Positions 4,275 to 14,119 of a stretch of 22,189 bases of DNA are shown piece after piece (position 1 is the first letter of the stretch; every line of letters begins with the position of its first letter). Under the pieces are notes generated by a model that saw nothing but the letters and a program-made list of their open reading frames with translations, made no database searches and was not told where the DNA came from. This stretch comes from a virus. The stretch covers positions 1 to 22,189 of the IMG/VR virus record IMGVR_UViG_3300007344_000287; one strand, 5' to 3'. Made by a program: the position numbers and the translations under genes.

Positions 4275-4420
4275 GGTTTTTGTGTGAGTGATGCAGCGGC
4301 GCCTAGAATGTGTGGGCAAGACTAGGCCTGAATATGAATTAACGACGACGTGTCCCCGTGCCCGTTCCGTCCCCCTGTTGCCAAGGGGAGCCGCTGCAAA
4401 TTATGGGTGTGCTCGTATGT

Positions 4421-4457
4421 GGCACATGCAAACCAGTAAAAGGGCAATGCATGTGCC
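4421..4457. repeat. 10-bp inverted repeat GGCACATGCA / TGCATGTGCC
   Basis: A perfect inverted repeat (4421-4430 and 4448-4457) with a 17-bp spacer lies just beyond the stop of the minus-strand RHH gene. The half-site GCACATGCA also occurs at 4632-4640 upstream of that gene, so this is more likely a second operator than a terminator: there is no T-tract after it on either strand. Protein bridging between the two sets of sites, about 200 bp apart, is possible. Confidence 0.5.
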
Positions 4458-4466
4458 GTGGTTGGT

Positions 4467-4616
4467 TTAGCCTTGGCGCTCCAAGTATTGCTCAATTGCC
4501 TCGCGCAGAATCACCGAGATTTTCACTCGGCGCTTTTTGGCGATTCGCGCAACCTTGCGCTGATCCGTCTGAGGAACTCTCGCCCTAAGTGTTTTTGAGT
4601 AAAGCGTGTCCGGCAT
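4467..4616 (-). CDS. Ribbon-helix-helix (CopG/Arc-type) repressor, 49 aa
   Basis: This short ORF starts with ATG 4616. The product has a strand region LRARVPQ (residues 10-16), the first helix (DQRKVARIAKKRR), then KISVILREAIEQYLER (32-47), which fits the RHH second helix. Such proteins dimerise and bind operators through the paired beta-strand. It resembles the divergently transcribed RHH protein at 4779-4952 (shared RARV and ILR-AI--YLER), suggesting a duplicated pair. GCACATGC-type half-sites occur at its start codon and just upstream, which suggests autoregulation. It is the first gene of the minus-strand early operon. No Shine-Dalgarno sequence is present; translation might be leaderless. 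Confidence 0.75.
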   Translation of the reverse strand: MPDTLYSKTLRARVPQTDQRKVARIAKKRRVKISVILREAIEQYLERQG

Positions 4617-4640
4617 GTGGGCTACATTGGAGCACATGCA
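4612..4640. promoter_or_regulatory. Probable operator of the minus-strand RHH gene
   Basis: GGCATGTGG (4612-4620) and GCACATGCA (4632-4640) form an imperfect inverted repeat that includes the RHH start codon. The same half-site makes the perfect inverted repeat at 4421-4457. A TTGACT (minus strand, about 4647-4652) lies 17 nt upstream of AATGTA, and the half-site at 4632-4640 falls inside that spacer, the expected place for a repressor site. The -10 match is weak. Confidence 0.45.
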
Positions 4641-4778
4641 GGCCCAGTCAAAAAGAAACTTTCCTTTTTTTTGGGGCTGAGGAACTGCGTATAAGTTGTT
4701 CTGTTTTTAAAAAAAACTTGGTTGTGCCTAGATGTGGCCTAGCGGATCTTCTCGCCCAATTTAAACTTACGCCACACC
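4617..4778. promoter_or_regulatory. Divergent control region between two RHH genes
   Basis: This 162-bp gap separates the divergent RHH starts. It contains homopolymer tracts (T8 near 4665-4672 and A8 near 4710), a plus-strand TATAAG at 4690-4695 that could be a -10 for the rightward gene, and a repeated GTG-CCTAG / GTGGCCTAG pair around 4724-4742. The layout matches phage immunity regions such as lambda cI/cro or P22 arc/mnt. Which promoter is active under which condition cannot be read from sequence alone. Confidence 0.4.
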
Positions 4779-4952
4779 ATGAATGCAGAATCTGCCCTCC
4801 CGGATAAACAGAAAACCGCAGTGATCAGAGCTAGAGTAACGGACCAGATTAAAAGGCAGGTGGACGCACTCGCAGAGGCGTCAGGGGAATCTGAGGCGTA
4901 CATTTTGCGCCAGGCGATCCGTGAGTACTTGGAGCGCCACAGCAAAAAATGA
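4779..4952 (+). CDS. Ribbon-helix-helix (CopG/Arc-type) DNA-binding protein, 57 aa
   Basis: This short plus-strand ORF encodes a 57-residue protein. It has strand AVIRARV (14-20), helix 1 DQIKRQVDALAEASG (22-36), and helix 2 EAYILRQAIREYLERH (39-54), a textbook RHH domain. It is a paralogue of the minus-strand RHH protein but has its own spacing and a longer N-terminus. It points toward a 29-bp tandem repeat array that begins 59 bp after its stop, so the array is a natural candidate target. It may be the lysogeny repressor, an anti-repressor-like Arc counterpart, or a partition-type centromere-binding protein; position does not decide. Confidence 0.75.
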   Translation: MNAESALPDKQKTAVIRARVTDQIKRQVDALAEASGESEAYILRQAIREYLERHSKK

Positions 4953-5011
4953 ACCACTCAGCACGGGGAGCTGATGCGCGGGCGCATGTATGCACTCGGC
5001 ATTATCGGGGG

Positions 5012-5272
5012 AATCCAGGGAAACCTCGCGGCTGAACGGCAATCCAGGGAAACCTCGCGGCTGAACGGCAATCCAGTGACGCCTCGCGGCTGAACGGTAA
5101 TCCAGTGACGCCTCGCGGCTGAACGGCAATCCAGGGAAACCTCGCGGCTGAACGGCAATCCAGGGAAACCTCGCGGCTGAACGGCAATCCAGTGACGCCT
5201 CGCGGCTGAACGGCAATCCAGGGAAACCTCGCGGCTGAACGGTAATCCAGTGACGCCTCGCGGCTGAACGGG
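5012..5272. repeat. Nine tandem 29-bp repeats (iteron-like array)
   Basis: Nine head-to-tail units of exactly 29 bp start at 5012, 5041, 5070, 5099, 5128, 5157, 5186, 5215 and 5244. Each begins AATCCAG and ends CCTCGCGGCTGAACGG plus one base. Two subtypes differ in the middle: type A has GGAAACC and type B has TGACGCC, in the order A A B B A A B A B. Units are otherwise almost invariant and there are no spacers. The unit is not a multiple of three, so the long frames through it are artefacts. Possible roles are replication iterons, a partition site, or an operator array for the adjacent RHH protein. Confidence 0.9.
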
Positions 5273-5586
5273 AATGCTCCTGCTTTTGATCTGGAGCAGA
5301 GACGGATCTGCACACCCCGCCCATTGCGCTGGACGGAGCATGCATGCTTCTGCTTTCGAGAGCCATCGCTGTCAAATGGAGAGCTGCAACGGATGAAATG
5401 CCACTGGCCCCACGAGGCGCCACCTCATGCCAGTCTAGGCAAATCATCACCCGGGAGCTTCAAGCGCTCCCTTTTGCCCGCGTGATGCGGGGCCATGCTG
5501 GGCCGAGTGTGTTTCGCAGCATGGCTGTGGGGTTGATTAACGCCCTACGCTGTCCGTGTTTCAGGTTTCAGGATCGGGAGCCCCAG

Positions 5587-5620
5587 GCAAAAAGAAAGCC
5601 CGGAAATGCAGTTCCGGGCT
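5587..5620 (-). terminator. Rho-independent terminator, minus strand
   Basis: A perfect 9-bp stem AGCCCGGAA/TTCCGGGCT (5597-5605 and 5612-5620) with a six-base loop is followed on the minus strand by TTTCTTTTTGC. It would stop leftward transcription coming from the attP/integrase side, insulating the repeat array and RHH switch. If the prophage forms, it could also stop read-through from the disrupted tRNA side. Confidence 0.75.
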
Positions 5621-5778
5621 ACCCGTTTAAAATCTGGGCCAGATCATTTGAGGCGAGGCTCAAAGCCGTGACGCAACTGCATTTGCTATGTCTGCGCGAG
5701 ATGTGGCTTAGTTCTGCAATTCCGTCAACGGGGAATTTAACAGGGAAACGCTAAAAAAGCTCACCAAACGTGTTAGAG

Positions 5779-5799
5779 TTGTCGCCACTTTCTCGCCAC
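5779..5799. promoter_or_regulatory. Putative left integrase arm-binding repeats (attP)
   Basis: TTGTCGCCACTTTCTCGCC followed by AC contains two TCGCCAC units 10 bp apart. The same 19-bp block recurs at 5964-5982 with 17 of 19 bases identical, on the other side of the tRNA half. Direct repeats flanking an att core beside a tyrosine integrase are the expected form of arm-type sites. Confidence 0.55.
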
Positions 5800-5868
5800 A
5801 TTCTGACCATAGAAGCAGTGATCCTTGGCTATTCTGAGGCAGTATTTCAGGAATACTGGCGCTTTCTG

Positions 5869-5910
5869 CGGTTTTGGAGACCGATGCTCTACCAATTGAG
5901 CTACTGACCT
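5869..5910 (-). other. attP core: 5' half of tRNA-Trp(CCA)
   Basis: Minus-strand bases 5910-5869 read as a tRNA 5' half: acceptor strand AGGTCAG, TA, D arm GCTC-AATTGGTA-GAGC, and an anticodon arm CGGT-CTCCAAA-ACCG whose loop gives anticodon CCA. After the anticodon stem the sequence stops resembling a tRNA: there is no T arm and no CTGACCT acceptor partner. Phage genes lie on both sides, and the integrase starts 110 bp away. It therefore fits an attP core, with crossover in the anticodon region, better than a host tRNA. Integration would join this half to the host 3' half and rebuild the tRNA. Confidence 0.75.
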
Positions 5911-5963: not shown

Positions 5964-5982
5964 TTGTCGCCACATTTTCGCC
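5964..5982. promoter_or_regulatory. Putative right integrase arm-binding repeat (attP)
   Basis: TTGTCGCCACATTTTCGCC matches the left block at 5779-5797 in 17 of 19 positions and lies between the tRNA half and the integrase start. Together the two blocks bracket the core at about 72 and 54 bp, as arm sites would. It could also influence integrase transcription because it is 38 bp upstream of the start codon. Confidence 0.55.
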
Positions 5983-6019: not shown

Positions 6020-7108
6020 ATGCCGCCCAAGATCAAGCCTAATCCATCCGGGAAATACCCTTGGCTAGTGGAATGGCGGGAAGGAGTGACCAAAACAGGA
6101 GCACCCAAGCGCTGCCGTAAATACTTTGTAAATGCAGCCCAGGCCAAAACCTTCGCACGAGAGAAACGGACGGAACTGGCGACACTTGGCGCCAAGGCAA
6201 CTCCCTGGTCAGCACTGGAAAGAGCGGCCATCGAGGAAGCAAGAGCGGCCCGCATTGATCCGCTTGAGGCTGTGCGGCACTTTGCTCATCTCAAAGCAGA
6301 GCAGGCAAAGAGCGTGCCTGTGGGGGAGGCTGTGGAAGAGCGCCTGAGAGACGCTGAGAGACGTTTTAAGCCTTCCACGGTGACCGACACTAGATACAGG
6401 CTAAACGCTCTCAGAAAGACTTACAGTGAACAGAACGTGAGGGGCATTTCTCGCGATAACCTGGAGAAATGGATTACAGAGCGAGGGAGCACCCAGAACC
6501 AACGGAATTTCTGGATTGTGCTGCACTCGTTCTGGGAATTCTGCATCAGCAGAGGTTGGGCGGGGGAGAATCTATTGGATCGCATCCCCAAACCAGGAAA
6601 ATCTAAAAGCAGCATTCAGATATTCGCGGTGGAACAGCTCCGCACCTTGCTCCACGGGGCAGAGCCTGAAATCCTGCCGGCCCTGGCAATCATGGCATTT
6701 GCAGGGCTGAGGCGATCCGAAGTGATGGCGCTGCAATGGGAGCACGTCAGAGGGGGCCACATCGAAGTCACCGCAGACAACGCAAAGAGCGCTCGGCGCC
6801 GATTGGTGACGATTTGCCCCGCGCTGAGAGAGTGGCTTTTGTGGGAAAAACTGGGTAATATTTCCCACAAATCTGGGGCATTATGGCCGGGCCGCTCCAA
6901 TGCCTACCGCAGAGCTAGGAAACTGGTCACCCCTTGGCCACACAATGCGCTGCGGCATTCGTTCGCCTCCTATCACCTCGCACTGAACAGAGATGCTGCA
7001 AGCACGGCCCTGGAACTAGGGCACAGCTCCACGGCAATGCTGTGGGAGCATTACCGCGAGCTAGTGACCCAGAAAGAGGCTGAAGCGTGGTTCTCGCTTA
7101 CTCCTTGA
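6020..7108 (+). CDS. int: Tyrosine recombinase / phage integrase
   Basis: A 362-residue tyrosine integrase. An N-terminal arm-binding-type domain (about 1-60) is followed by a SAM-like core-binding domain (about 95-185) and the catalytic domain (about 200-355). Catalytic positions are Arg231 in AGLRRSEV, Lys256 in NAKSARRR, Arg312 in NALRHSF, His335 in LGHSS and nucleophile Tyr345 in WEHYREL. The usual first His of the HxxR motif is Asn309, although His308 is adjacent. The NALRHSFASYHLA style is one I associate with Verrucomicrobiota elements. The gene sits beside the attP core, so it most likely integrates the phage at tRNA-Trp. Its 3' end overlaps the convergent sigma-like gene by 58 bp. 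Confidence 0.93.
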   Translation: MPPKIKPNPSGKYPWLVEWREGVTKTGAPKRCRKYFVNAAQAKTFAREKRTELATLGAKATPWSALERAAIEEARAARIDPLEAVRHFAHLKAEQAKSVPVGEAVEERLRDAERRFKPSTVTDTRYRLNALRKTYSEQNVRGISRDNLEKWITERGSTQNQRNFWIVLHSFWEFCISRGWAGENLLDRIPKPGKSKSSIQIFAVEQLRTLLHGAEPEILPALAIMAFAGLRRSEVMALQWEHVRGGHIEVTADNAKSARRRLVTICPALREWLLWEKLGNISHKSGALWPGRSNAYRRARKLVTPWPHNALRHSFASYHLALNRDAASTALELGHSSTAMLWEHYRELVTQKEAEAWFSLTP

Positions 7109-7554
7109 GCCTGCAACCGCTCCAAACTCAGCGCCAGAATCTCCCGCGCTTCCTGCGGCTCCATCCCCAGCCGTGCCGCTGCATCCTCGATTTTCTCACG
7201 GGGCCGCTCAAGCAAAGTAGAGTAAACCAAATCTGCTGCCAACGGGTCAAGCGCACTCAACCAATCCCACTGCTCTTCATCCTCGGCGCTCTCTGGCAAA
7301 TCTTCGCCAAGCAGCGGCTCTTTGAGCAGATCACGCATGGCTCTGCGGATTTTGGGGCGAGCATAGGCAGCAAAGGGGCGCCCCCTAAACCGCCATTTAT
7401 TGGCTGCCTGCGTCAATGCGTAGGCGCCGGCGGAAAAGAAGTCATCAAAGGTCAGTCCCTGTGCCCTACGGCTGGCTGCCTGCAACACCACTAACCACAA
7501 GTGCCCCTCAACCAATTCTTCTGCACTGGCTCTGCTTTGTTCCTCTAGGCTCAT
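7051..7554 (-). CDS. Sigma-70-like transcription factor, 167 aa
   Basis: The start at 7554 is chosen because the sigma-like homology begins there and the methyltransferase gene ends only 22 nt upstream; a longer frame to 7737 would overlap that gene heavily. Residues 12-78 resemble sigma region 2: EELVEGHLWLVVLQAASRR, then LTFDDFFSAGAYAL, and a FRGRPFAAYARPKIRRAMRD segment matching the core-binding and -10-recognition helix. Residues about 103-150 (IEDAAARLGMEPQEAREILA) resemble the region-4 HTH. It is the last gene of the late operon. It may redirect host RNA polymerase to phage promoters; a diverged helical regulator is the alternative. Confidence 0.65.
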   Translation of the reverse strand: MSLEEQSRASAEELVEGHLWLVVLQAASRRAQGLTFDDFFSAGAYALTQAANKWRFRGRPFAAYARPKIRRAMRDLLKEPLLGEDLPESAEDEEQWDWLSALDPLAADLVYSTLLERPREKIEDAAARLGMEPQEAREILALSLERLQAQGVSENHASASFWVTSSR

Positions 7555-7576
7555 TCGGGGAGCTGCGAGGCAGGCT

Positions 7577-8119
7577 TTAACACATTTTAACACGGGCAAG
7601 CTGCGCGGGATACTCTCCAGGGTCTGGCTCAATACGCTCCACAGATCCCGCCATAGCCAGGGCCCAATCATACCAGGGCCGCGAAGAGTCATGAATGAAG
7701 ATGGCGGGGCAGAGCGGCCAACCCACCTTCTCTCCATAATTCAGCAACCTTGCCAAGCATGCGCCACGCGCAATGCCATCAATCAGGATCACATCAAAAT
7801 CTGCGAGGTCCGCAGGCGTTCCAATGTATTCAGCGGCGCCGGCTGGGCACTCCTCCCATGGTGTTGCGTTTTTGCCCTCGTGACTCACGGGACGATAAAG
7901 TAGCTCCCACTTGTGCGCCAGATCACGCTTGAGCACTTGCCGCCGCAATTCATGTGACCATTGCAACGAATGCTCCACACTGGTCAAACTTTGATCATCT
8001 CGCATGTTTTCGAGCAACCATAGAGATGTGCCGCCGCTGCCCCACTCAAGAATGGCGCTATGATCCGGCAATGCCTCTAGCAATGCCTGCCGCTGATTGA
8101 GCGCCATCAATGCCTTCAT
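7577..8119 (-). CDS. Class I SAM-dependent methyltransferase, 180 aa
   Basis: The 180-residue protein has motif I as EWGSGGTSLWL (25-35), an acidic motif II in SVEHS (47-51), and DVILIDG (109-115) as the motif IV-type strand. It ends with a C-terminal aromatic/His segment IFIHDSSRPWYDWAL. This is the pattern of small class I methyltransferases found in glycan and secondary-metabolite clusters. The substrate is unknown. The gene overlaps the upstream DUF115-like gene by ATGA (8116-8119) and follows a glycosyltransferase, so methylation of a sugar on the virion or host surface is a reasonable inference. Confidence 0.75.
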   Translation of the reverse strand: MKALMALNQRQALLEALPDHSAILEWGSGGTSLWLLENMRDDQSLTSVEHSLQWSHELRRQVLKRDLAHKWELLYRPVSHEGKNATPWEECPAGAAEYIGTPADLADFDVILIDGIARGACLARLLNYGEKVGWPLCPAIFIHDSSRPWYDWALAMAGSVERIEPDPGEYPAQLARVKMC

Positions 8120-9001: not shown

Positions 9002-9627
9002 CACCACTGCATCCATTCATGCTGCACCGCGTTGGGGCGCGGTTGCCCGTGAAACATTACCACGCTTGCTCCCTGCGGCCCTCGCTCTGCGCAATTATCC
9101 CCCTTATAACTCTTCACCAACCCGGGCGCCTTATCCTGCCACATACCAACTGCATTGGGCAGCAAATCCGCGATCACTTCCTGATCACCATGATTCTCTT
9201 TCATGTGATGCTCTTTCCGCGCTAAAAACCCGGGCCATACTTCGCGCTTGATTGCGTCTGGAATAAACATCATGCCGCTTGCCAATTCTTGATGACGGTA
9301 AAAATCCCGCAGCATGATTGCATTGAGAGAATCGCGGCAGATCCTTTCAATAGGGCGCAGATCACCCGTAACCACCATATCTAGATCAAAGTAAAGCCAA
9401 TCATAATAGGTGTTGAGGCGAAACAGCTCTAGCTTGCTCCACCATCCCGGCAGCCCTACCTCAAGCAGAACGGTGTTGCAGTTTAAGTCGTCTCTATCTG
9501 AAAAGCAGAAAAAGGGCAAATGCCCCAAGCCTCCACGCTCTAGCCCTGCGCGTAGTTTATAAACCCAGTCCGGGGAGTAATCCCCGCCGCTCTTCATTAC
9601 GCATGCAATCGCTAAATCCATGTCCAC
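9001..9627 (-). CDS. Glycosyltransferase, GT8-like (DxD motif)
   Basis: The 208-residue protein contains [10 protein letters not shown] (39-48), a [12 protein letters not shown] block (60-71), and [14 protein letters not shown] (77-90). In the last of these the DLD at 81-83 is the metal-binding DxD of GT-A enzymes. The FDLDMVV context and the downstream LASGMMF and HGDQEVI segments (the latter as [12 protein letters not shown]) fit GT8-like and related families that transfer a hexose from a nucleotide sugar. The start overlaps the end of the collagen-like fibre gene by 16 nt, so translation is coupled to that of the fibre. The fibre is therefore the first candidate acceptor, though a host glycan is equally possible. 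Confidence 0.75.
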
Positions 9628-12491
9628 GCGCCGCCCGTGAGCACCATAGATAAACTATCCCCATTAGAATATCCAACGGGATCTGGCAGGTCTGGAACAT
9701 TCGCGGAGTCACCTTGTGGGCCAGTGGGGCCCTGCGGACCTTGGTTGCCCTGTGGACCTTGAATACCTTGGTCACCTTGCAATCCTTGATTGCCTTGGGG
9801 CCCCGTATCACCTTGCGGCCCCTGAATACCTTGATTGCCCTGGTCGCCTTTGGCTGCCAGCAAATCCCAATAAGTCTGCCAAGACGGGCTAACTCCCGGT
9901 TCAATATTGGTGTGATTTAGAATGCACACATAAGCGCTGCCATTGTGCTCTAATGCATTTGTGACCACGTAGGCAGTGGCATTGCTCCAATCAGCGCTAA
10001 TCCAAATCAGCCCTTGATCACCCGTGTCCCCTTGAATGCCTTGTGGACCTTGCGCACCCTGGTCGCCTTGCACCCCCTGCGGCCCTTGAATGCCTTGGTC
10101 GCCTTGGATTGATGTTTGATAAGCCCAAGTGCCAGCGCTCTTCTTCCACACTTTATTGGGCGCATTCTGGTCTAAATAATAATCACCATTGTTGCCCAGG
10201 CCCGCCCCCGGATCACCATAGCCATTCAACCACTCAGGAGCAACGCCAGTGTCACCTTGAATTCCCTGTGGCCCCTGAATGCCTTGTGGCCCCTGAATAC
10301 CTTGGTCACCTTGGGCGCCTTGCAATCCTTGATCACCCTGCGGCCCCGTATCGCCCTGCGGGCCCTGAATACCTTGTGGCCCTTGAATACCTTGTGGACC
10401 CTGAATACCTTGGTCACCTTGTGGGCCAGTTTCGCCCGTGGGCCCTGGGACAGTGCTTGGATCACCCTGCGTCCCTTGATCACCTTTGGCCGCCCACAGC
10501 TCCCATGCTGACACGTTTGGAGGGGCCACATTTACACTATTAGCAATAGCCAGATAAGTGCTCCCATTATGCTCAACAACATCATCAATGTTGTATGTGG
10601 TTCCGCCAACATAGGCGCCGCGTGGCGTAAACCCTCTACCGTCAGCACCGTCATTGCCGGCGGGGCCAGTCGCGCCTTGCTGCCCTTGCTCACCCTTGGC
10701 AGCCCACTTTTCCCAGTAAGTTGCATTAGGTGGCTCGAAATTAGTGTGCCCCAAAATGCAGCGCCAAGTGGCGCCATCATTGATCACAATATCATCAATA
10801 ACATAGGCAGCGGCGTTGCTCCAAGTGCCGCGAGGCGTAAACCCTCTGCCGTCAGCACCATCAGCACCATCAGCACCATTGTTACCCTGATCACCCTGCG
10901 GGCCAGTGGGGCCAGGAACAGTGCTTGGATCGCCTTGGTCACCTTTATCGCCCTGGGCGCCCTTTTCCGCCCATAGCTCCCAGTAAGTTGCATTAGGTGG
11001 CTCTTGATTGGTGTTGGATTGCTTCGCCCGCCAAGTGCTGCCGTCATGATTTACAATGTCATCAAGATTGTAATTGGTGGCGGGGCCCCAATCACCTCGC
11101 GGCGTGAATCCTCTGCCTGCGTCACCCGTTACGCCTTGAATGCCCTGGTCACCCTGCAACCCTTGATCGCCTTGGGGACCTTGTGGGCCCACATCACCAG
11201 TCGCCCCGGGCAATCCGGTCACACCTTGATCACCCTGCAATCCTTGTGGGCCTTGGTCGCCTTGATCTCCTTTATCCCCCTTGGCGCCGGTCACCCCTTG
11301 CAACCCAGTCAATCCCTGATCGCCCTGCGGGCCAGTTATAGATTCGCCCTGCGGCCCTTGTGGCCCTGCATCACCAGTTGCCCCAGGCAATCCAGTTACT
11401 CCCTGAATGCCCTGCGGCCCTTGTGGGCCTTGCGCCCCCTGGTCACCCTGATCACCTGTAGCGCCTTGCACCCCTTGATCGCCTTGCAATCCCTGAATGC
11501 CTTGCGGCCCTGTTTCGCCTTGCAACCCTTGGGGCCCAGTCACACCCTGCTCACCTTGCAGTGATGCTCTCAGCGTCCAAACACCATTTGCCTTCTTGTA
11601 ATAGCTATTAGGGGCATTCCTGTTGATGTAAAAATCCCCATTATCACCCAGGCCAGTGGATGGAGCACCATAACCATCCAAGATCTGGCTACCCGTATCC
11701 CCTTGAATGCCTTGGGGCCCCGATGGTCCTGTGATCGTTTCGCCGGCAGCGCCAGTCAATCCGCGAATGCCTTGCTCCCCTTGATAACCTCGTGGGCCCT
11801 GGGGTCCCGGTACAAAGCCTTCGCCTTTAGCGTCACTGCCAGTTTCCCAGATCAAACACGATCCAGTTTCCAGCTCGATGCAGAAAGGCTCAGCCGTGGG
11901 CCCTGAATCGCCTGTGGGCCCCTGAATGCCCTGCGGGCCCGTAATAGATTCGCCCTGCGGGCCAGATGGTCCCTGCACTCCCTGAATGCCCTGCGGGCCC
12001 TGGTCGCCCGTAGCCCCTGCCGCGAAAATATCCCAATAGGCCTGCCACGACGCACCCACGCCTGGCTCTGTGGTTGCGTTCGTCGTGTCATGGGCAGTGA
12101 TCGCGACATAGGAAACATTGTTATGCGTCACCACATCACGCACAGAAATAGCGCCGCTAATCAGCGACCATGCGCCACGATAATTAAACCCATCACCTGT
12201 GGCCCCTGTTCCCGTGGGGCCCTGATCACCCTGCGGGCCAGTGATAGATTCACCCTGCGGACCTGATGGGCCTTGGGGCCCTGTGATCGTGCTAGTAGGG
12301 CCCGTGGGCCCTTGTGGGCCAGTGATAGATTCACCCTGCGGACCTGATGGACCTTGGGGCCCTGTAATTCCTGTGCCGCCAAGCCCGGGAATGCCCTGCG
12401 GCCCCGTGGGGCCTGTTACAGTTACCCCTGATGGGCCTGTGGGCCCCGTTGGAGACTGAAAACCAAACTCTTTTACCCAGTAACCACTCAT
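9612..12491 (-). CDS. Collagen-like tail fibre with interspersed beta modules
   Basis: From ATG 12491 (ATGA overlap with the hub gene; a start at 12512 adds seven residues) the product is about 959 residues. Long Gly-X-Y tracts, rich in GPQ, GDQ, GPT and IQG triplets, alternate with modules of about 50 residues. At least three modules begin GFTPRG and carry a Trp/Tyr pattern ending YWELWA-KG; two more divergent ones begin GFNYRG and LIWISA. They resemble small chitin/carbohydrate-binding folds. Two further modules share NAPN-YY/VW-KK. The C-terminus ([21 protein letters not shown]) is a capping region. Being next to the J-like hub, it is probably the receptor-binding side or central fibre, forming a trimeric collagen helix. 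Confidence 0.88.
12235..12365. repeat. Recent internal duplication in the fibre gene
   Basis: A block of about 50 bp beginning GGGCCAGTGATAGATTCACC at 12235 recurs 81 bp later at 12316 with very few changes. The spacing equals 27 codons, or nine Gly-X-Y triplets, so triplet register is kept. This points to recent slippage or recombination that lengthened the collagen tract. Confidence 0.7.
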
Positions 12492-14119
12492 CCGAAAGGC
12501 CCTCGCTTCCAAACATCGCCTGTGTCAATGTCCACGTATCTTTCGCCAGGATCACCTTCTCTAAACGGAGATGGTGCGCCATTGCCGCTAGTCCATTTGT
12601 CGCCCTCGCTGTCATTCACGGAGGGGCCATTGGATGTGTCAAAAGTTTGCTCTTCTGTGGAATGATCCCAATCATAAATAGAGGATGCATGCTTTCGCAG
12701 CGTCAACTTAACATGAGCAGAAGCGTTATTAGTGACAAAACTGTGCTCTATCACCTTGTAAATTCCATTAATGCCAAGCGCATCGCTGTTAAGCGTCACG
12801 GCATCCCAAGGCTTAACATCTAAGCCAACAAGCAAATTCACATCACATGTCACCTGCTCATCTAAAAGTTGCGTTTGCAGCGCAATTTTTGCCACCCGTT
12901 GCGCTTGAGTGTGAGAAGCCACAAACTCTAAATCATGCTCCATCACCACCTCTGTGCTTGGTGACCTTTCCTCAGCGAGAAACGGATTGCCGCCCTCCAG
13001 CAACACATCCACATCACTCTCAGTCTGCATTTCGTAAGTGCCTCCCGTGTTTGCGTCTCTGATAATGGGGTATTCAGTCGCGGCATCAAACGTTTCAGGA
13101 GCAACAAAAATGCCCTTGATCACTGTGGCCCTCTCCAGGCTAGTGCGGGCAGTGGTTCTGATAATGTCGCCCACAATATGATCATCTGTAATCGTCACCT
13201 CTGGCGCTGTGTAATAGCCTGAATGAACATAGTAAATCCCATCATGTTCAATCACTGCCCCCGCCATGCATTTAACTACAGGGTCAAGCCAATCTTCTGG
13301 CTCTCCCTCTAGATCAATAAATCCGCCGGCTCTGTATTTCTTCTCTGTTCCTCCCACCTTGTTGACCACAGTGTCACAATCATTCGCAGAAGCGATTAGC
13401 GTGGCACTATCAATGCGAGAGCGAGGAATGTTCACGTAATCCTCTAGAATGTTTGCAGCGATCAACGCAGGGTTGTCAGTCCACTTCAAAGTCTGATCTC
13501 GCGGATCATAGATATTATTTTTGCCCTTGATGGTGCAGGTTAAAGTGGGAATAAACGAGGGGAAACGCGCAGGCGACTCTTTTAGTTTTGCGTAAACGTA
13601 GGCTCTGCCCCTCAGCCTATGGTTCTCACCCCAAAGCGCAGGGTCTGCCGTGTCTTCAACCGCAGCAGGCAATGCCACCTGTGTATCTGTGCCGCTGACA
13701 AATTCAAAAAATGCATAATTCTCAAAGCGCCCATCTGCGCTGTTGGTCACAGGGTCAACAGTCACTAGTTCTCCGTTAATGTAAAAATCGCCAAATTCCT
13801 CCACCTCATGCGCTGCGTAAACAACAATTAAATAAAGGAATTTATTATTCCCCTGGGCGCCGCTGCCGTTGGCGTAGGCAATCAAACCGCCCTTTCTTGA
13901 TTGCCCATAGATCACCTGATGCGCCATGGAGCCTGATCGCACATTACCCGAGCGACCCGGACGGCTTTGCGCATCTGGGCGGCCCTGCAACTTCTGCCCG
14001 AGCACCTGGGCCCCAACAGCCACTGCTGCCTCAATGGCAACAGCCGCAATCGTGCCAATCACACTGGCAGCAGCTTGGGCGCCGGCAACCGCAGTAACAA
14101 TGGCCGCACCTATTCCCAC
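12488..14119 (-). CDS. Tail tip / central hub protein, J-like
   Basis: The 543-residue product starts with an Ala/Gly-rich hydrophobic segment (about 1-40) and then [37 protein letters not shown] and YINGEL. This is the N-terminal arrangement of lambda J-type and related hub proteins. Further on, [21 protein letters not shown] and a long region of beta-strands follow; the C-terminal part carries LGGN-type and DWDHSTEEQ segments. It is shorter than full J, and the receptor-binding extension is supplied by the next gene, the collagen-like fibre. It lies downstream of an NlpC/P60-like gene, the usual order for siphophage tail tips. It closes the distal end of the tail tube. Confidence 0.8.

Follow-up and report, generated by a model that had tools for sequence, protein, structure and literature searches.

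Nine tandem 29-bp repeats between an RHH gene and attP of a temperate phage: tentatively, a protein-binding or titration array

The array and its phage

The question raised by this locus is what role, if any, is played by nine tandem repeats that begin 59 bases beyond the end (4952) of a gene for a small ribbon-helix-helix (RHH) protein. The window, which is the whole stretch of DNA that was analysed, is a linear IMG/VR virus record of 22,189 bases, and much of the phage genome probably lies outside it. Late genes, in leftward orientation, occupy the stretch between 22 kb and 7 kb and comprise a tape measure gene (PF20155), tail protein genes, a collagen-like tail gene, and a gene for a sigma-like protein. 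Early genes, including those for Holliday junction resolvase-like and Mom-like proteins among others, point the same way and extend from 4.3 kb as far as the left edge. The lysogeny segment lies between the two blocks and holds two RHH genes, the array, a terminator-like hairpin, attP, and a tyrosine recombinase gene; the array is situated between the ends of two convergent transcripts. The features of this segment are as follows.

4467-4637, minus strand: gene for a second RHH protein of 56 aa, divergent, probable paralogue of the first (PF01402, E 3.4e-4)
4638-4778, no strand assigned: putative divergent promoter region of the RHH genes, with candidate operators GCCTAG at 4726 and 4737
4779-4952, plus strand: gene for a 57-aa RHH (CopG/Arc-like) protein (PF01402, E 5.4e-8; PHROG CopG/Arc-like)
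5012-5272, no strand assigned: nine 29-bp direct repeats in the order A A B B A A B A B (TRF and a register script)
5597-5620, minus strand: terminator-like hairpin with a T-run, the likely end of the leftward late transcript
5782-5802, plus strand: two copies of TCGCCACNTT, 11 bp apart, candidate arm-type sites of one attP arm
5866-5910, minus strand: attP core, 5' half of a tRNA-Trp (CCA anticodon), by match to verrucomicrobial tRNA-Trp
5967-5976, plus strand: third copy of TCGCCACNTT, candidate arm-type site on the opposite side of the core
6020-7108, plus strand: tyrosine recombinase (phage integrase) of 362 aa (PHROG_1, E 1.6e-32)

The phage is temperate and integrating. Its recombinase resembles those of Akkermansia phages (26-30%) and finds matches in 159 of 387 verrucomicrobial genomes, with 25-47% identity among the matches listed, and this twofold likeness suggests that the host likely belongs to the Verrucomicrobiota. 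The attP core begins with the first base of the acceptor strand of tRNA-Trp and reaches as far as the anticodon stem; a 40-base stretch of it has its best match, with one mismatch, in 2 of the 387 genomes, and the Rfam tRNA match at 5835-5910 is sub-threshold.

The array was reported by TRF as 5012-5275, with a period of 29, 9.1 copies, 0% indels, and a score of 423, and the register script placed the unit starts at 5012, 5041, 5070, 5099, 5128, 5157, 5186, 5215, and 5244. Every unit is exactly 29 bases long and the units follow one another head to tail; a CRISPR array was considered and rejected, since unique spacers between the repeats are absent. Twenty-five of the 29 columns are invariant. 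Columns 8, 11, and 12 switch jointly and define the A and B types, and column 29 is C in six units, T in two, and G in one, so that variation is restricted to one 5-nt block and one additional position. In cyclic order, the unit consists of a conserved 24-bp stretch, CCTCGCGGCTGAACGG-N-AATCCAG, and a 5-bp spacer of two kinds. An earlier note on this DNA had described a strictly periodic, nearly invariant array of two interleaved variants, in a phage context and near a pair of RHH genes, and all of these points were borne out.

The longest exact repeat within the array measures 86 bases, so the unit order could be resolved by an assembler using k-mers longer than this; the copy number of nine is read from a single metagenome contig. 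The only other tandem arrays that TRF found in the window are located in the region of the collagen-like tail gene (9.8-12 kb). A period of 29 bp corresponds to about 2.8 helical turns at 10.5 bp per turn, so adjacent units would face different sides of the helix, and dyads within the unit are weak (in B, one of 10 bp with a single mismatched pair).

A multi-site array or a recent minisatellite

The reading that we tentatively place first is that of a DNA-level multi-site binding or titration array built by tandem duplication. The array would then act in cis, as double-stranded DNA, within the lysogeny segment of this temperate phage of Verrucomicrobiota. Several molecules of one DNA-binding protein might sit side by side on its nine conserved 24-bp stretches, and it could titrate or concentrate the bound protein near attP and the RHH genes. 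The order of the units suggests that the array may have grown by tandem duplication from two unit types. In this respect the earlier suggestion of a large operator or decoy array comes close to the explanation preferred here, while its other part, a plasmid centromere or origin, was not supported, as discussed below.

A close rival, which ranks close behind and is itself quite possible, is that a 29-bp sequence was recently expanded by slippage or unequal recombination in a non-coding gap and that the resulting minisatellite has no function. Near-identical units are what recent expansion or homogenisation would leave, and the array sits in the gap that separates the end of the RHH gene from the late terminator, a location between convergent transcript ends where neutral DNA is tolerated and which speaks against a binding array. 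Weighing the other way are the invariance of most columns, the confinement of the variation, and the regulatory surroundings provided by the RHH pair, attP, and the integrase. Independent point mutation, moreover, would be unlikely to yield differences between A and B that are both clustered and linked, together with the three states of column 29. When neutral slippage was simulated with a simple model, applied as a post hoc test, 0.1-0.7% of the arrays with four variable columns had three of them linked inside a 5-nt block. Given the rarity of so tight a linked block, A and B look like true sub-types that arose via selection or one multi-base event; a single multi-base mutation would, however, yield the same pattern, which counts against the binding array, as do the period off the helical repeat and the weak dyads.

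Comparison with related phages bears on both readings. Eighty viral loci with related integrases, kept out of 151, were screened with TRF (score at least 60, period 10-150, at least 2.5 copies), and a comparable array was defined by a period of 20-60 that is not a multiple of 3 and by five or more copies. None was present in 1.116 Mb, where 46 of the 80 loci had at least 2.5 kb of upstream sequence and 142,671 of 200,000 upstream bases were present. Such arrays are thus not a common by-product in these phages, which argues against the minisatellite; the same absence near related integrases and RHH genes, together with that of any homologous array from the collections searched, also suits a recent and functionless expansion. 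The nearest array-like features were 12-24-bp repeats about 0.8 kb upstream of the integrase in two loci (L127 and L135) and, after the integrase, 11-bp repeats at 1.9 kb in two others (L068 and L069). Twenty-five verrucomicrobial integrase loci (L034-L058, flanks of about 1.5 kb) gave no comparable array either, the nearest feature being a 12-bp repeat of 4.9 copies in L050.

Direct searches for the array gave a similar outcome. The exact 28-letter pattern had no match in viral_contigs, searches of which may omit records very near the window. A blastn search of 4400-5900 against 50,697 phage records retrieved 339 records, the best 20 of which matched in the tRNA-Trp stretch only, and 4953-5300 found no match among 72,556 plasmids. 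A 271-bp array query matched 7 of the 387 Verrucomicrobiota genomes over at most 55 bases; these matches were judged to be chance, and none was a comparable tandem array by TRF. Relatives of the window's tail proteins occur in 6 of the 387 genomes, and the regions taken from three of these six contained no comparable array. The only close relative found is an 11-kb contig (L003) with 99-100% protein identity in the tail genes, which by coordinates ends near window position 10.9 kb, so the array locus itself was compared in distant relatives only.

The neighbouring RHH protein comes first to mind as a possible ligand. The nearest solved chains to the 57-aa protein belong to the CopG family (E 4e-4), and the 56-aa protein has a sub-threshold match to the NCBIfam ORF56 plasmid copy control family (E 3.3e-5, 23.9 of 50 bits); the two genes share an inverted similarity of 46 nt at 74%. 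RHH regulators such as CopG, Arc, and ParG-like proteins often autoregulate their own promoter. Two enriched words, picked post hoc, may serve as operators here: GCCTAG, with five of its seven copies in the window within 4301-5435 and a pair at 4726 and 4737 spaced by 11 bp, about one helical turn, and GCACATGCA, all three copies of which (4422, 4448, and 4632) flank the leftward RHH gene, the last adjoining the divergent promoter region. Both words are unlike the array unit. Within the promoter region (4638-4778), no 7-mer of the array was found, with 0.75 expected; this absence of a common motif weighs against the binding array and fits the minisatellite. Nor was a comparable array met beside the RHH homologues at 15 loci in 14 of the 387 genomes (best 53-54% identical). 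Proximity is accordingly the sole evidence for the link to the RHH gene that the earlier note had drawn, and the RHH protein stands as the first candidate ligand by position. In a 111-kb virus record that encodes an RHH homologue (L002), a 23-bp repeat (2064-2155, four copies, 81%) contains the dyad GTGATG-TGT-CATCAC and lies at a distance of about 6 kb from the homologue's gene.

A more specific version of the binding array, and an improbable one as it stands, treats it as a two-type decoy. A and B, which differ in the 5-bp spacer only, would have unequal affinities for a single lysogeny regulator, perhaps the RHH protein. The fraction of units occupied would then measure, in graded fashion, the number of copies of the regulator or of the phage when lysis or lysogeny is chosen. 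If the array is bound by protein, it would represent a compact titration array in phages of Verrucomicrobiota, with two unit types that would allow a direct test of graded binding; our searches found nothing on lysogeny control in such phages. If it is neutral, it may be a copy-number marker for phage strains and a caution against taking a neighbouring RHH gene as evidence for a centromere.

Origin and centromere readings in the light of known systems

In P1 incA, a control gene is followed by nine direct repeats, 19-bp iterons that are bound by RepA, and this comparable array, which adjoins the rep gene of P1, would favour an iteron-type origin. The window matches it in the number of repeats and in their place after such a gene, and differs in having no RepA. 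The IncU plasmid RA3 possesses interleaved repeat arrays of two types, of which DR1 titrates RepB (PMC9455977). Like the array studied here, DR1 and DR2 are long and non-coding, combine two interleaved repeat types, and adjoin replication or control genes; the RA3 units, in contrast, measure 38-60 bp and flank repA/repB (PMC9455977), whereas the window's units differ by only three bases and belong to an integrating phage with no known rep gene. DR1 is the nearest described parallel in working, and membership of that system is not claimed.

An iteron-type origin or copy-control locus, bound by an initiator and used in phage replication, is unlikely. Direct repeats in non-coding DNA would be in keeping with it, and the arrays of RA3 that adjoin rep genes offer a precedent (PMC9455977). 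Against this, the exact DnaA box TTWTNCACA is absent from the window, the AT-richest 60 bp starting within 4950-5340 reaches only 52% AT in surroundings that are GC-rich, and no initiator or Rep was recognised by Pfam among the 28 window proteins. The record is a 22-kb linear fragment, and it is possible that an initiator is encoded elsewhere in the missing part of the phage genome.

Still more doubtful is a partition centromere, bound by an RHH or ParB-like protein, of a phage able to persist as a plasmid. This idea, with which the earlier note had begun, gains some plausibility from the RHH gene (PF01402) that adjoins the array and from the repeat centromeres that RHH proteins bind in type Ib and type II systems (PMC5016525). 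The array resembles these and sopC-type centromeres in that the latter are repeats bound by a small DNA-binding protein (PMC5016525). It differs in that an integrase is present, no motor ATPase was found (ParA, ParM, and TubZ are absent among the 28 window proteins by Pfam), and the repeats lie downstream of the RHH gene, while the type Ib centromere is placed upstream of the par operon (PMC5016525). Rather than lying upstream of or inside a partition-gene promoter, the array follows the rightward RHH gene and shares no 7-mer with 4638-4778. With an integrase and attP at hand, a plasmid state, and hence a plasmid centromere, is unnecessary.

Mycobacteriophage RedRock, likewise temperate, provides a further comparison, since its parS is made of direct repeats within its lysogeny region; each locus holds an 8-bp motif in eight copies, parAB is present, and integrase is absent (PMC7157519). 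In cluster A mycobacteriophages, the integration cassette is replaced by parABS (PMC7157519). Neither this array nor an integrating phage with an RHH-bound centromere was found described, judging by titles and the openings of abstracts, in the literature searched, which included few subscription papers.

Attachment sites, coding tests and neighbouring genes

An accessory array of arm-type sites for integrase or excisionase is most improbable. About 600 bp separate the array from the attP core, which could favour such a role; the arm-like word TCGCCACNTT, however, flanks the core itself at 5782, 5793, and 5967, its only exact copies in the window, and is missing from the array, which lies more than 500 bp from the nearest of them. 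It is TCGCCACNTT, and not the array unit, that was found on both sides of the core. The word TCGCCAC recurs in the integrase-related loci L068 and L069, where 11-bp and 18-bp repeats, AGTCGCCAC..., at L068:12782-12871 and L069:8604-8693, about 1.9 kb after a window-related integrase, contain a core word common to the window's arm-like sites. As an arm motif common to related integrases, TCGCCAC was rejected because its density shows no excess close to the integrase (0.27 versus 0.29 per kb, 55 of 80 loci), so the candidate arm-type sites draw on the window only. The tRNA half in attP is the 5' half and lies on the integrase side, where the usual one is the 3' half; the integrated phage would need to provide the tRNA-Trp promoter.

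It is just as improbable that the array is transcribed into a repeat RNA or encodes, on the minus strand, a small protein built of repeats: all three minus-strand frames are open, as would suit a protein, but so are those of 47% of shuffled units, every plus-strand frame is closed, the period (29) is not divisible by 3, both strands fold more weakly than dinucleotide shuffles (z +1.76 and +2.79), and an Rfam search with a threshold as loose as E 5 matched nothing on the array. The frames and the period make protein coding unlikely, in agreement with the non-coding character proposed earlier, and the poor folding points to an element at the level of DNA rather than RNA, an RNA element being likewise unlikely.

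Some observations concern the neighbouring genes. A gene for a Mom-like DNA modification protein lies at 744-1427 on the minus strand (PF25680, E 9e-28; PHROG_1384, E 3e-31), and a tRNA-like match by ARAGORN at 1268-1340 on the same strand, with an anticodon that is not clear and an Rfam RF00005 score of 30.4 bits against a cut-off of 29, falls inside the 5' part of this reading frame. At the end of the late block, the gene for a protein similar to sigma-70 region 2 (7051-7737, minus strand) overlaps the end of the integrase gene in antisense. The collagen-like (Gly-X-Y) tail gene at 9612-12512 on the minus strand encodes 966 aa and harbors internal repeats, including two 177-bp copies.
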